Shown: positions 7,714-40,950 of the stretch, in pieces
Layout: every line of letters begins with the position of its first letter
Position numbering within the stretch: position 1 is the stretch's first letter
Assembly (NCBI RefSeq): GCF_022690685.1
Contig: NZ_JALCYY010000005.1
Coordinates: forward strand, 62,001-126,000
Direction of reading: 5' to 3'
Length of the DNA stretch: 64,000 nucleotides
DNA from: Anaeromyxobacter terrae
Lineage (GTDB): Bacteria; Myxococcota; Myxococcia; Myxococcales; Anaeromyxobacteraceae
The notes under the pieces: generated by a model
The model's database searches: none
The model's input: the letters and a program-made list of their open reading frames with translations, nothing else
What the model was told of the DNA's origin: nothing
Position numbers and translations under genes: made by a program

Positions 7714-7793
<80 letters not shown>

Positions 7794-34988: not shown

Positions 34989-35358
34989 GGTGAGCTCCTG
35001 CGTGCGCGGCACCGTCCCTCGGGAAGCCGCGAAGGGCAAGCAGCATTCGATCAGCCCGGCGTCCGCCTCGACGTTCCGGTGCAGTCGTGCCTGAACAGCA
35101 CCGCCCAGCGCCTGGGCGGCGGGCGGCCCACCGCCTCGCGGCCCGAGGCCGGGGAGCATGGACACGCAGCCCGCGAGCGGCTAGAAGCTGACGCCCGCGC
35201 CGCCGGGGTGAGTCGAGCGAGCTCGGCCCAGGAGCGCGTCGCGCTCTCGGGCCCGTCGCAGGCCCCGCCGCCCACCACGCGCGGCCGGTCACCCGGTGTG
35301 GCCGGCCGCCCATTTCTGGCGACTCCGTCCGCTGACGCGGGGGATCGCAGGGTCTTGC
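34989..35358. other. Intergenic, no gene seen
   Basis: About 370 bases between divergent aldo/keto reductase and Hsp70-like genes. No good frame or promoter consensus found. Confidence 0.45.
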
Positions 35359-36648
35359 ATGTCCGAGCTGCCGACCGTCTACGCGATCGACTTCGGCACG
35401 AGCAACTCGCTCCTCGCCGCGGCGAGCCCGGAGCGGGTGTTCGACCCGGTGCCGCTCGATCTCGATGCGTCCGACCCGACGATCCTGCGGAGCATCCTCT
35501 GCTTCCCCGACGCGGGCGGCGTGTTCGTGGGCGCCGAGGCCCTTCGCCAGTTCATCGAGCACGGGGCGGAAGCCCGCCTGCTGCGCTCCATCAAGCACCA
35601 CCTCGGCTCGCGGTCCTTCCGCGGGACGATCATCCGCGGGCGTCTGGTCTCCGCGGAGGAGCTGGTCGCCTCTCTGCTGCGCCACATGCGCCTCCGCGCC
35701 GACGCGCACTTCGGGACGGAGGTCCGGCGCGCGCTCCTGGGCCGGCCGGTCCACTTCGACGGGGAGGACGACGCCTTCGCCGAGGGCCGGCTCCGCAAGG
35801 CGGCGGAGCTCGCGGGGTTCGAGGAGGTCCACTTCCTCCCCGAGCCGGTCGCGGCCGCGCGCGCGTTCGGCGCCGCGGCCGAGCGCGAGGAGCTGGCGCT
35901 GATCGGCGACTTCGGCGGTGGCACCTCCGACTTCACGGTGCTCCGCATCGGCGCCGCCAGGGCGCTCGAGCGCGGCGACGTGCTCGCCGTGGGCGGCGTG
36001 GCGGTCGCCGGCGACGCGCTCGACGCCTCGCTCATGCGCTCGCAGGTGAGCCGGCACTTCGGCGCCGAGGTCCAGTACCGGGCGCCCTTCGGGGCCAACG
36101 TCCTGCGGATGCCCCAGGGGATCGTGCAGCACCTCTGCTCGCCCGCGCACCTGTCGATCCTTCAGCGGCGCGACATCGCGAGCTTCCTCGCCGACGTGCG
36201 GCGGTGGGCGCTCTCCGAGGAGGATCGCCGCCGGATGGATCAGCTCAAGACCCTCGTGGAGGACACGCAGGGCTTTCAGCTTTTCGAGGCCATCGAGCGC
36301 GCGAAGCGCGTGCTCTCGACGAGGAAGGGCTCGGAGATCGTCTTCTCCTATCCCGGCATCGAGGTGCACGAGCCCGTCACGCGTGCGGGCTTCGAGGACG
36401 CGAGCCGCCGCGAGGTGGACGCCATCCTGGGCTGCCTCGACGAGACCGTGCGCGCGGCCGGCGTGGAGCCCGCCGACATCGGCGTCGTCTGCTGCACCGG
36501 AGGCACCGCGAAGGTCCCGCGGATCGCGGCCGAGATCCGGCGCCGGCTGCCGGCGGCGCGCATGGAGCAGTTCAAGGGGTTCCACTCGGTCGTGGAGGGG
36601 CTCGCGCGGGAGGCGCGGGAGGTCGCGCGCGGCCGGTCACTCCGTTGA
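35359..36648 (+). CDS. YegD-like Hsp70-family ATPase
   Basis: A 429-residue actin-fold ATPase without the Hsp70 substrate-binding domain. The phosphate 1 motif is YAIDFGTSNSLLA, the phosphate 2 motif LIGDFGGGTSDFTVL, and the adenosine motif VVCCTGGTAKVP. FLPEPVAAARAFGAAA is the connect region. It resembles E. coli YegD, whose role is unknown. It is one of two Hsp70-related genes in this window. Confidence 0.9.
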   Translation: MSELPTVYAIDFGTSNSLLAAASPERVFDPVPLDLDASDPTILRSILCFPDAGGVFVGAEALRQFIEHGAEARLLRSIKHHLGSRSFRGTIIRGRLVSAEELVASLLRHMRLRADAHFGTEVRRALLGRPVHFDGEDDAFAEGRLRKAAELAGFEEVHFLPEPVAAARAFGAAAEREELALIGDFGGGTSDFTVLRIGAARALERGDVLAVGGVAVAGDALDASLMRSQVSRHFGAEVQYRAPFGANVLRMPQGIVQHLCSPAHLSILQRRDIASFLADVRRWALSEEDRRRMDQLKTLVEDTQGFQLFEAIERAKRVLSTRKGSEIVFSYPGIEVHEPVTRAGFEDASRREVDAILGCLDETVRAAGVEPADIGVVCCTGGTAKVPRIAAEIRRRLPAARMEQFKGFHSVVEGLAREAREVARGRSLR

Positions 36649-36660
36649 CTCGAAGCGCGC

Positions 36661-37467
36661 TCAGGGTCCGGGCGCGTGCACCGTCGCCGCCGCGAACCGC
36701 GCGGCGATGCCGCGAAGCTCCTCCTCGTTCACGTCGGAGACGAGCGCATACGCGAGGCCCCCGTCGCGCCAGAGCACCACGTTGAAGCCCCGCGCCGACA
36801 CCTCACGGCCGCGCGCCGGCCCGAGCTGCCGAGCGCCCGTGTCCGGCCAGGGGAGCCCCTCGGGGCGGAAGACGAGCAGCGTCACGGCGTGGAGGCGCAG
36901 CGCATAGACGATCACCGCCGCCTTCCGATCGAAGACGTAGCCGACCGACCCACCTCGCAGCCGGAGCTCGCTCCCCTCCGGCGCCGGGACGACCGGCGCG
37001 AAGTCGAGCTTCCCCTCGAACCAAGGCTTCACCTGGTGCGTCCCACCGCTCTCGATCTCGACCGGGTGCTCGCTCGCGAGCACGCGCAGGTGATCGTTCA
37101 CGACCTCCGAGGTCAGGGTGGCGAGCTCGCTGCGCTGGCTCGAGCTCCGAGACAGGAGCACGCCGCCTGCGAGGAGCAGGAGTCCCGCCGCCATCGCCGG
37201 GGCGATGACGCGCGTCCATCGCCCCGGCTCGACGCGCGCCGACGCCGGTCGTCCCACGAGCAACCCGAGGCGTCGCTTGAAGGCGTTCGGCGCCGCGTAG
37301 CGCGGCAGCCGCTGCTCGAGCAGCTCGTCCAGGACGTGCTCCGCCCGCTCGGCGCTGCTGCAGGCCGCGCAGCCCTCGAGGTGAGCGCCGACGTCCCCGT
37401 TGAGCGCTGGATCGAGCCGGCGCTTGACGAAGTCGTGCAGGTGGATCTGGACGTCTTCGCAGTTCAT
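36661..37467 (-). CDS. Anti-sigma factor with zinc-finger domain
   Basis: A 268-residue protein. The N-terminal domain has HLEGCAAC, the HxxxCxxC zinc site of ZAS-type anti-sigma factors (about 29-36). One membrane helix (about 88-106, VIAPAMAAGLLLLAGGVLL) leads to a periplasmic domain. The ATG overlaps the stop of the ECF sigma gene by four bases, so it is co-translated and should hold that sigma factor inactive until an envelope signal arrives. Confidence 0.88.
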   Translation of the reverse strand: MNCEDVQIHLHDFVKRRLDPALNGDVGAHLEGCAACSSAERAEHVLDELLEQRLPRYAAPNAFKRRLGLLVGRPASARVEPGRWTRVIAPAMAAGLLLLAGGVLLSRSSSQRSELATLTSEVVNDHLRVLASEHPVEIESGGTHQVKPWFEGKLDFAPVVPAPEGSELRLRGGSVGYVFDRKAAVIVYALRLHAVTLLVFRPEGLPWPDTGARQLGPARGREVSARGFNVVLWRDGGLAYALVSDVNEEELRGIAARFAAATVHAPGP

Positions 37468-38060
37468 GAAGGGTCCCGTGCTGCGTAGTCGGCGAGCTTC
37501 AGCCTGAGCGCCGCGCGCGCTCTGTTCAGCCGGGACTTGACCGTCCCGACTGCGCAGCCGACCACCATGGCCGTCTCGCTCTCCGTGAGGCCCTCGGCGT
37601 CGAGGAGGATCACCGTGCGCGCGTCGTCCGAGAGCGTTCGGAGCGCCGCCTCCAGCTCGCTGGAGAGGACGCGGCGCAACTGCTCCGCCTCGAGCTCACC
37701 GCGCGACGAGCCTTCGACGGCCGCCTCCTCCGGCGACTGCTCGGTCGTGTCGTAGGGCGCGGGTGCGGGGTGACGCAGCGCGTGGCGGTAACGGCTGATG
37801 AAGGCGTTGCGGAGGATCCGGAAGAGCCACGCCTTGACGTTCGTCCCCGGCGCGAGCTCGCTCCAGGCGCGCAGCGCGCGCACGTAGGTCTCCTGGACCA
37901 GGTCCTCGGCCTCGCCCGCGTCGTGGGTGAGATAGCGGGCGAGGTTGTACAAGGCGTCGGCGTGAGCCAGCGTGTCCTCGGCGCGCTGCGGCGCGTGCGC
38001 GCGGCTCCACCGCTCGAGCGGCATCGGCGTCATGTCTAGCGAGGAGACCTCTCCGCTCAT
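37464..38060 (-). CDS. ECF sigma-70 factor
   Basis: A 198-residue extracytoplasmic-function sigma factor. Region 2 reads LYNLARYLTHDAGEAEDLVQETYVRALRAW and region 4 ends ETAMVVGCAVGTVKSRLNRARAALRLKL (helix-turn-helix). The two regions are linked by a short acidic spacer. It is followed by its anti-sigma gene and preceded by a promoter of the ECF type that it probably recognises itself. Confidence 0.94.
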   Translation of the reverse strand: MSGEVSSLDMTPMPLERWSRAHAPQRAEDTLAHADALYNLARYLTHDAGEAEDLVQETYVRALRAWSELAPGTNVKAWLFRILRNAFISRYRHALRHPAPAPYDTTEQSPEEAAVEGSSRGELEAEQLRRVLSSELEAALRTLSDDARTVILLDAEGLTESETAMVVGCAVGTVKSRLNRARAALRLKLADYAARDPS

Positions 38061-38119
38061 CCTCGAACCGGCAGTGCGCCCCGCCAGGGAATTTCGTGGC
38101 GGCGCCTCACACTCCGCTC

Positions 38120-38145
38120 AACGTCGCTCCCACCAGGACCGTTCC
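38120..38145 (-). promoter_or_regulatory. ECF-type promoter of the sigma/anti-sigma operon
   Basis: On the minus strand GGAAC (38145-38141) and CGTT (38123-38120) are 17 bases apart, the arrangement typical of group ECF promoters (GGAAC...CGTT). It lies 60 bases before the sigma factor ATG, implying autoregulation. Confidence 0.6.
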
Positions 38146-38178
38146 CCCGGGACGGCGACGGGACCGAGCCCGCGAAGT

Positions 38179-38205
38179 GGAACGGTCCCCCGGTCACCTG
38201 GCGTT
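38179..38205 (+). promoter_or_regulatory. ECF-type promoter facing the MetOD1/kinase genes
   Basis: GGAAC (38179-38183) and CGTT (38202-38205) are 18 bases apart; its GGAACGGTCC is identical to the first ten bases of the opposing site. It lies about 190 bases upstream of the MetOD1 gene. Confidence 0.45.
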
Positions 38206-38396
38206 TGCCGCGGTGAACGCTGGCCACTCGCCACGAGGACGTCCCCGCCTGGGCCCCGGCGCTGCGCTCCTTCGGCGCCAGAGCGCGGCCAGACGGGTCG
38301 CCCCGACCGGTCGGCCCACTGCCCGTCCGATCCTCCACCGGGGGCAGACCTCTCAAGGGATCGGCCTGGGCCCCCGCCGGTGCGCATGGGAGCCCG

Positions 38397-38927
38397 GTGG
38401 CCGCACCCGATCACCGTGACCCGCGCGAAGCGGACGTCCACCTCGAGCGCGACGTCTTCCTGCGAACGCTCCTCCACCACCTCGCCGGCGCGCTCGAGGA
38501 GGTGGTCGGCGTGCGCGACGCGTCGGGGTTCGTCTCCATCGTCGGCCAGCGCATGGGCGACGAGCTGGGAGCGGAGTACAGGCGAGCGCTCGGGGTCGAG
38601 CAGCTCCCGCCCGAGCAGCTCGGCGCGGTCCTCGTCGATCTGAAGCGCCGCATCGGCGGCGAGTTCCGGGTCATCGAGCAGACGGAGGACCGGATCGTCT
38701 TCGCCGCCCGCTCCTGCCCGTTCGGCGACAAGGTCGTGGGCCGCCCCTCGCTCTGCATGATGACCTCCAACGTCTTCGGCTCCATCGCCGCCGACTCGAC
38801 CGGGTTCGCCAAGGTGGGCCTCGAGCAGGCGATCGCTCGGGGAGACGCCGGCTGCCGAGTGGTCGTGTATCTCCGTCCCTCCGAGCGCGCGGCTGCCGCC
38901 ACCGGACGCGAGTATGTGAGGGGGTGA
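38397..38927 (+). CDS. MetOD1 (methanogen output domain 1) protein
   Basis: A 176-residue protein from GTG 38397. The C-terminal half with [17 protein letters not shown] and later [17 protein letters not shown] matches the MetOD1 domain, a ligand- or metal-responsive output domain with conserved Cys found in archaeal and bacterial signalling proteins; the N-terminal half is helical. It is the first gene before a histidine kinase (4-base gap), so the two are likely a signalling unit. Confidence 0.75.
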
Positions 38928-38931
38928 CCGC

Positions 38932-40110
38932 TTGCTGGCTGCGTTCCGCGCCATCGCCCAGCTCCTGCCCGACGCGCTCCTGCTCGTCTCGCGCTCCGGA
39001 GCGGTCGTGGTCGCGAACGACGCGGCGGGCGAGCGGCTCGGAGTACCGGTGACGGCGGTCGAGGGGCGCGCGCTCGTGGAGCTCACCGGCGACCCGGCGC
39101 TCGCCGAGTTCGTCTCTCGCTGCCTCCGCTCGACCGGACCGCTCCCTGGCGCGTTCACGCTCGCCGGGCGCGGCGAGCGGGTGCGCTGCGAGGGGGCGCG
39201 CCTGTCGGGCCCGGACGCGCTCCTCGTGCTCCGCCTGGTCGCGCCGGAGCAGCACGGACACTTCGCCCTCCTCTCGGAGAAGGTCGACGCGCTGAACCGC
39301 GAGGCGCTCCACCGCCGCACGGCCGAGGCGCAGCGCGAGCGGCTCATCGCCGAGCTGAACCGCGCGGTCCGGCTCTCGGAGACGTTCGTCGCCGTGCTCG
39401 GCCACGATCTGCGCAACCCCCTCGGCGCGGTCGTCGCCGGGGCGACCCTCGCGCTCCGGCGGACCGAGGACCCGAAGGTGCGCGGCCACCTCGAGCGCGT
39501 GCTCCGCAGCGCCCGCCGCATGGCGCGCATGGTCGAGCAGCTCCTCGACGTCTCGCGCGTCCGGCTCGGCCGGGGAATCCCGCTCACGCGCGCCGAGATC
39601 GATCTCTCCGAGCTCGTCCGGCAGGCCGCGGCCGAGACCGAGCCCTCGCACCGGCAGCACCGCTTCGATCTCCGGCTCCCCGCGCGCTGCGAGGGGGAGT
39701 GGGATCGCGATCGGCTCGCTCAGGTCCTCTCGAACCTGCTCGCCAACGCGTGCGAGCACTCGGAGGCGGGCTCGGTCGTGACGGTCACGCTGCGCGACGC
39801 CCCGGCGCAGGCGTCGGTCTCGGTCCACAACCCGGGACCCGCGATCCCGCCCGAGCTCCTCCCCTCCGTCTTCGACGCGTTCGCGAGCGGCGCGGAGGGC
39901 CGCGGCCTCGGCCTCGGACTCCACATCGCGCGCGAGATCGCGCAGGCGCACGGCGGCGACGTCGCGGTCGAGTCCGCGCCGGAGCGCGGCACGACCTTCA
40001 CGGTCACCCTGCCCCGCCGCGCCGCCGGCGCGGCGGCGCGCACGATGACGCCGCTGCCCCAGCTCCTCGACGCCGCGCCCACGCCTGGACGCGCCGGCGG
40101 GACCCGCTGA
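38932..40110 (+). CDS. PAS-domain histidine kinase
   Basis: A 392-residue soluble kinase. A PAS domain (about 8-110) is followed by a coiled coil, the H-box LGHDLRNPLG, N-box NLLANACEH and G2 box GLGLGLHI; the G1 box VSVHNPGPAI is intact in outline. The TTG at 38932 is the first usable start after an in-frame stop at 38917-38919, and the gene overlaps no neighbour. Its stop at 40110 touches the stop of the convergent permease gene. No receiver is adjacent. Likely works with the MetOD1 protein. Confidence 0.86.
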   Translation: MLAAFRAIAQLLPDALLLVSRSGAVVVANDAAGERLGVPVTAVEGRALVELTGDPALAEFVSRCLRSTGPLPGAFTLAGRGERVRCEGARLSGPDALLVLRLVAPEQHGHFALLSEKVDALNREALHRRTAEAQRERLIAELNRAVRLSETFVAVLGHDLRNPLGAVVAGATLALRRTEDPKVRGHLERVLRSARRMARMVEQLLDVSRVRLGRGIPLTRAEIDLSELVRQAAAETEPSHRQHRFDLRLPARCEGEWDRDRLAQVLSNLLANACEHSEAGSVVTVTLRDAPAQASVSVHNPGPAIPPELLPSVFDAFASGAEGRGLGLGLHIAREIAQAHGGDVAVESAPERGTTFTVTLPRRAAGAAARTMTPLPQLLDAAPTPGRAGGTR

Positions 40111-40950
40111 TCAACCCGCGAGCCGTCGCAGCGCCGCCGGCGCCGCGAGGAGCGCGGCGAGCGCGACCATCGTCGCGCCGGTGGGGATCTCCCAGAGCCA
40201 CGAGAGCACGTACCCGCCCGCCGCCGCGACGACGCCGAGCGCCGCCGCGAGCGGGAACGCGAGCCGGAAGCGCACGCCGAGGAGCAGCGCCCCCGCGGCG
40301 GGCAGCGTGAGGAACGCGAAGACCGGCAGCGCCCCGAGCGCCCGGGCGGTGACGGGGATGGCGAGGCCGATGGTGAGGAACAGCACCGAGTCCCACAGCT
40401 GCACCCGCATCCCGACCGCCTGGGCCGTCTCCGCGTCGAACGACGTGAACGCGAGCTCCTTCGCGAAGAGCCCGTGGACCACCGCGCAGAGCACGGCCAC
40501 CGCCGCGATGACCGCGAGATCGCTCGCCGGCACCGCCACCGCGTTGCCGAAGACCATGCCGCCGAGGTCGTGCGCGGCATGCACGAGGCGGCTCGCGCCC
40601 AGGACCACGAGCGCGGACGAGACCACCCACGCCGTGCCGACGGTCGCCTCGGCGGGGAGCCGCCGCGGCCGCAGGGCCCCCAGGATGAGCGCGCCCACCA
40701 CCGAGAACGCGATCGCCACGAGGAGCTGCTCGGAGGCGTGCTCGGTCTCGATGTGGAGCCGCTCCTCTGCGAGGAGCGTCGCGACGAGCCCCAGCGTGGA
40801 GAGCTGGGTGAGCGCCGCGGACACGAACACCGTGCGCCGGAGCACCACGAAGACGCCGAGCGCACCGAGGAGCGCGCCGGCGATGACGGACGCCGCGAGG
40901 GGGACCTGCCAGATCTCGCGCGCGGCGAGGAAGTCCTGGAGCGCGCTCAC
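40111..40950 (-). CDS. Zinc/manganese-type ABC transporter permease
   Basis: A 279-residue protein with about eight membrane helices of the ABC-3 (ZnuB/MntB/TroCD) family; TLPAAGALLLGVRFRL and VQLWDSVLFLTIGLAIPVTARALG are typical. GTG 40950 overlaps the ATPase stop by four bases (GTGA). It is the last gene of the uptake operon that starts with the beta-barrel protein gene. Confidence 0.9.
   Translation of the reverse strand: MSALQDFLAAREIWQVPLAASVIAGALLGALGVFVVLRRTVFVSAALTQLSTLGLVATLLAEERLHIETEHASEQLLVAIAFSVVGALILGALRPRRLPAEATVGTAWVVSSALVVLGASRLVHAAHDLGGMVFGNAVAVPASDLAVIAAVAVLCAVVHGLFAKELAFTSFDAETAQAVGMRVQLWDSVLFLTIGLAIPVTARALGALPVFAFLTLPAAGALLLGVRFRLAFPLAAALGVVAAAGGYVLSWLWEIPTGATMVALAALLAAPAALRRLAG

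Follow-up and report, generated by a model that had tools for sequence, protein, structure and literature searches.

The window (the whole stretch of 64,000 nucleotides of Anaeromyxobacter terrae DNA that was analysed) contains a compact cassette of about 1.7 kb that pairs an ECF sigma gene with a zinc-type anti-sigma gene and has two like promoters predicted back to back before the sigma gene. The cassette now lies beside an unrelated MetOD1/kinase gene pair, and the preferred reading (probability about 0.68) is that it carries its own promoter pair and that the target of the outward promoter was acquired locally, outside any conserved circuit. The cassette, its left neighbour and the two promoters are as follows.

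35296..36648, plus strand: HSP70-like gene, left neighbour of the cassette (PF00012, 2.5e-20), conserved in G005, the closest relative
36636..38320, no strand assigned: cassette with the anti-sigma gene, the sigma gene and both promoters; gap at the matching place in G005, edges approximate
36661..37467, minus strand: anti-sigma factor, 268 aa (PF13490, 25.7 bits, cut-off 22.2)
37464..38060, minus strand: ECF sigma factor, 198 aa, sigma-70 regions 2 and 4 (Pfam PF04542, 1.5e-17; PF08281, 7.1e-13)
38120..38145, minus strand (read from 38145 to 38120): inward ECF-type promoter, GGAAC-N17-CGTT, GGAACGGTCCTGGTGGGAGCGACGTT
38179..38205, plus strand: outward ECF-type promoter, GGAAC-N18-CGTT, GGAACGGTCCCCCGGTCACCTGGCGTT

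The sigma factor was assigned to the ECF (group IV) family by the presence of sigma-70 regions 2 and 4 only, over 198 aa, and by an AAC/CGT promoter before its own gene that is conserved in the orthologues. The anti-sigma factor carries an H-x3-C-x2-C zinc motif and a C-terminal domain that is conserved in the alignment, with one hydrophobic stretch (by eye); the motif, the zf-HC2 match and the location of the gene downstream of that for sigma place it among the zinc anti-sigma (ZAS) factors, and its genetic position predicts that it is the partner of the sigma factor. The anti-sigma and HSP70-like genes converge, with 12 nt between their stops (36648-36661), right at the edge of the cassette.

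The sequence-only reading had described two opposing ECF-type sites (GGAAC-17-CGTT and GGAAC-18-CGTT) with 33 bases between the GGAAC elements and a common 10-mer, GGAACGGTCC, and on direct reading of the sequence this description was exact. The inward site lies 59 nt before the sigma ATG and faces the sigma/anti-sigma operon; the outward site lies 191 nt before the GTG of MetOD1 and faces the MetOD1/kinase genes. The 10-mer occurs exactly twice in the window, both times at the promoter pair; taken alone it is weak evidence, because two copies were also reached in 6 of 100 shuffles (mean 0.33). The intergenic region was searched for RNA families and yielded none, the sole Rfam match being far below the gathering score.

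Clade loci were collected by searching 99 relatives with the sigma factor, and 195 genomes of the phylum together with the 99 relatives with the anti-sigma profile. Nine sigma loci grouped together (support 98/93, tree of 45 rows), and all nine carry GGAAC-N16/17-CGT upstream of the sigma gene. Neither the 37 other loci with a sigma match nor five distant loci have the inward site; in three of the 37 the motif does occur on the opposite strand, within the coding region for sigma. Two loci (L136 and L148) had no sigma match and were left out before counting; G012 (L135), in which a contig end carries a fragment of the anti-sigma gene and the only sigma match is weak, was counted among the 37. 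An outward GGAAC-N16-18-CGT was found at most 70 nt from the inward site in six of the nine clade loci, with a chance in shuffled sequence of 0.2-2.3% per locus in those six. L065 is a seventh locus with an outward site, 97 nt from the inward one and 50 nt before the divergent gene, so that the layout recurs in 7/9 loci, the window included; because the clade members are related, the independent cases number fewer than seven. L062 has an outward GGAAC but no CGT; in L063, where the sigma gene is preceded by a second anti-sigma copy, an outward site was looked for and none was found. The gaps between paired GGAAC elements next to sigma are 7, 13, 13, 14, 16, 23 and 33 bases, whereas the -35 to -10 spacing stays at 16-18. 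This conservation within the clade is the strongest evidence for the reality of the predicted promoter pair, which on these comparisons is not due to chance. No description of the nine-locus clade was found in the accessible portions of the literature searched (including PMC8103513, PMC6180224, PMC5847659 and PMC3426412), which is no proof of its absence in print.

The gene faced by the outward site differs between relatives: in L066, L067 and L134 it encodes DoxX, in L064 a metallophosphoesterase, in L065 a small protein, and in L061 a cupredoxin-like protein, whose score of 22.8 bits falls short of the Pfam cut-off (27). The distance from the outward -10 element to the start codon is 23-54 nt in these six relatives versus 191 nt in the window, where no frame of 90 codons or more starts any closer. 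What is conserved, as far as can be predicted, is the promoter pair and not its target. A. oryzae (G006) has a cupredoxin-like paralogue in the vicinity of its second sigma copy; although this gene does not adjoin sigma, a site of its own (L062, 3803-3828) lies 58 nt upstream of it. The same genome has a second back-to-back GGAAC pair, with a gap of 13, between ABM monooxygenase and STAS-domain genes (L061, 2842-2906), 48 and 45 nt from their respective starts. Given these sites before the paralogue and before the ABM and STAS genes, the genes near the A. oryzae sigma copies seem to be targets of the sigma factor.

The right-hand neighbours of the cassette are as follows.

38321..38402, plus strand: MetOD1 leader and start region, common to G005 (and, from 38332, to G007), with AAGGGA conserved at 38355-38360
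38397..38927, plus strand: MetOD1-domain protein, 176 aa, GTG start (PF18546, 3e-20)
38932..40110, plus strand: PAS-HisKA-HATPase histidine kinase (PF02518, 7e-28; PF00512, 1.9e-13; PF00989, 7.7e-05), for which Pfam reported no membrane domain

The native MetOD1 ATG of G005 and G007 is TGG in the window (38367-38369), and the in-frame GTG ten codons further is the likely start of MetOD1 here.

Presence and absence were compared over nine genomes of the genus, one of them only 66% complete. Of these, the window genome and G007 (84%) yielded MetOD1, and the window genome and G006 the clade sigma; G011, from outside the genus, gave a weak MetOD1 match. G005 is about 91% identical to the window genome in DNA, and its alignment to the window has three parts: the HSP70-like gene as far as 36635, then 38321-38402, then the sequence from 38871 onward. 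G005 therefore has neither 36636-38320 (about 1.7 kb), which holds the anti-sigma gene, the sigma gene, both promoters and little else, nor 38403-38870, the body of MetOD1. At L313 (8083-8190) the G005 MetOD1 gene has an internal deletion of about 470 bases, and the kinase gene after it is intact. G007 aligns to the window from 38332 rightward; a glyoxalase-like gene (by eye) lies left of its MetOD1/kinase pair, and it has neither the sigma gene nor the site. These breakpoints in G005 and G007 argue that the sigma block and the MetOD1/kinase pair are inherited separately and that the predicted outward promoter belongs to the sigma cassette. The difference from G005 may be due either to an insertion in the window genome or to a deletion in G005. 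Since most of MetOD1 is missing from G005 as well, the region is judged unstable.

In five congeners (L314-L318) a tRNA-Met gene lies about 100-235 nt from a match to window positions 40115-40131, with no MetOD1/kinase genes between, and the only tRNA-Met gene of the window (7717-7793) lies 32 kb from that region in the other orientation; this placement suggests an insertion-prone site from around 40111 on. In G007 a recombinase-like gene (named by eye) stands beside tRNA-Met near the MetOD1/kinase pair (L177, 7592-8836).

In the proposed mechanism, a signal would inactivate the anti-sigma factor and so release the sigma factor, by analogy with ECF systems. The freed sigma factor would act leftward on its own operon, giving positive autoregulation, and at the second promoter on whatever gene adjoins the cassette. 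In most relatives the outward target would be a nearby gene whose product is exported or sits in the membrane (DoxX, cupredoxin-like protein, metallophosphoesterase). In the window the outward promoter would read into MetOD1/kinase across some 180 nt of hybrid leader; the transcript should enter these genes, because no terminator-like site was found between the outward promoter and MetOD1, and its usefulness to the cell is putative.

The sequence-only reading went further, and had one sigma factor drive both units, with MetOD1/kinase as its proper partner in a dedicated feedback circuit. Its first part held in so far as the inward site is of the autoregulatory type and the outward layout recurs within the clade; both sites would be sigma-dependent. 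A dedicated circuit is improbable. The geometry fits it, and there is a precedent at EcfG loci, where phyR lies divergent to the sigma operon and sigma-dependent promoters precede both units (PMC8103513, in the part available). Against it, no other locus examined has the MetOD1/kinase pair next to a clade sigma, the two occur apart in G006, G005 and G007, the sigma-promoter block is gone beside the same kinase in G005, and the pair of G007 stands without sigma or site. The long leader, the loss of the native ATG and the deletion of most of MetOD1 in G005 speak against it as well. The circuit is thus unsupported, and MetOD1/kinase was rejected as a conserved partner of the sigma factor; the aim of the outward promoter at the sensor pair looks like the product of a local rearrangement, with a probably secondary juxtaposition.

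Local acquisition of the target has itself to be weighed against other readings of the outward site. It is possible, on the doubtful side, that the site is the relic of a lost divergent gene and gives no useful transcript now: every one of the six relatives that carry an outward site has a gene starting at most 54 nt from it, and in the window no frame of 90 codons or more starts before 191 nt. Its -35 and -10 elements are intact, however, and the search for a terminator before MetOD1 was negative. That the two GGAACG elements are operator arms for a dimeric regulator, and not two -35 elements, is very improbable; the inverted repeat is seen in several loci and the gap is 13 or 14 bases in four pairs, but next to sigma the gaps vary from 7 to 33 while the -35 to -10 spacing keeps to 16-18, and in L063 and L065 no second arm lies near the inward promoter. 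A further reading, rather unlikely, is that sigma factors of the clade travel as a small cassette and that its outward promoter draws the gene beside the landing site into the sigma response, so that position rewires the regulon. On that reading the window would represent the occupied state of one such event and G005 the empty one.

The genome-wide motif search that had been proposed set the window pair apart and gave no coherent regulon. GGAAC-N16-18-CGTT has 85 matches in the window genome, and the 83 outside the locus all lack an outward partner at distances up to 100 nt. Seventy sites lie inside coding sequence, as placed by a codon-usage gene caller, and those outside it precede mixed genes with no common theme, so that a regulon drawn from this motif was rejected. 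The longer GGAACGRTYC-N10-13-CGT has four matches in 5.65 Mb, two of which are the window pair; a match at C84 was dismissed as chance in coding sequence, because it coincides with the start codon of a gene that by eye resembles secD. The longer motif was also rejected as a marker of the sigma factor: across 99 genomes it is not diagnostic, and it has nine matches in G007, a genome without the clade sigma. A similar promoter stands before a single-domain response-regulator gene in the window genome (G000), G005 and G007.

G000:C61:71440-71466 (L210, 1141-1167): ECF-type promoter before the single-domain response regulator, GGAACGATTC...CGTT

A regulon joining sigma, kinase and this receiver was rejected, since the promoter is kept in G005 and G007, which are without the clade sigma. 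Another sigma factor may use such sites, and the specificity of these predicted promoters for the clade sigma is not exclusive. The window genome and the sister genome without the cassette form a natural pair in which the effect of sigma gain or loss on the expression of an existing sensor gene pair can be compared.

There are known cases of one sigma factor reading divergent promoters. As described in the accessible part of PMC8103513, the EcfG/NepR/PhyR general stress response locus of Alphaproteobacteria likewise sets a sigma operon and a divergent signalling gene behind promoters of its own type (AAC / CGTT), with a kinase gene involved. Unlike EcfG, the window has an anti-sigma factor of the zinc-finger type, for which reason an EcfG system was rejected, and the divergent partner changes between relatives; among the genes scanned at the window locus there is no NepR or PhyR, the anti-sigma factor matching zf-HC2 only and the divergent genes being MetOD1 and a HisKA kinase. 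ECF41 sigma factors have as COE targets neighbouring genes, sometimes divergent, with the same motif before both, and the window resembles them in that the recognisable targets are the sigma factor's own neighbours; in ECF41 the regulatory domain is fused to the sigma factor and the -35 element is TGTCACA, whereas the window has a separate anti-sigma factor and a GGAAC -35 element (PMC3426412, in the part available). Operon order and the AAC/CGT promoter before the sigma gene are those of autoregulated ECF sigma/zinc anti-sigma operons generally, from which the clade differs in its recurrent second promoter facing away and in the changing target of that promoter. A promoter pair that is kept while its target changes, together with an empty site in a sister genome, is less usual.
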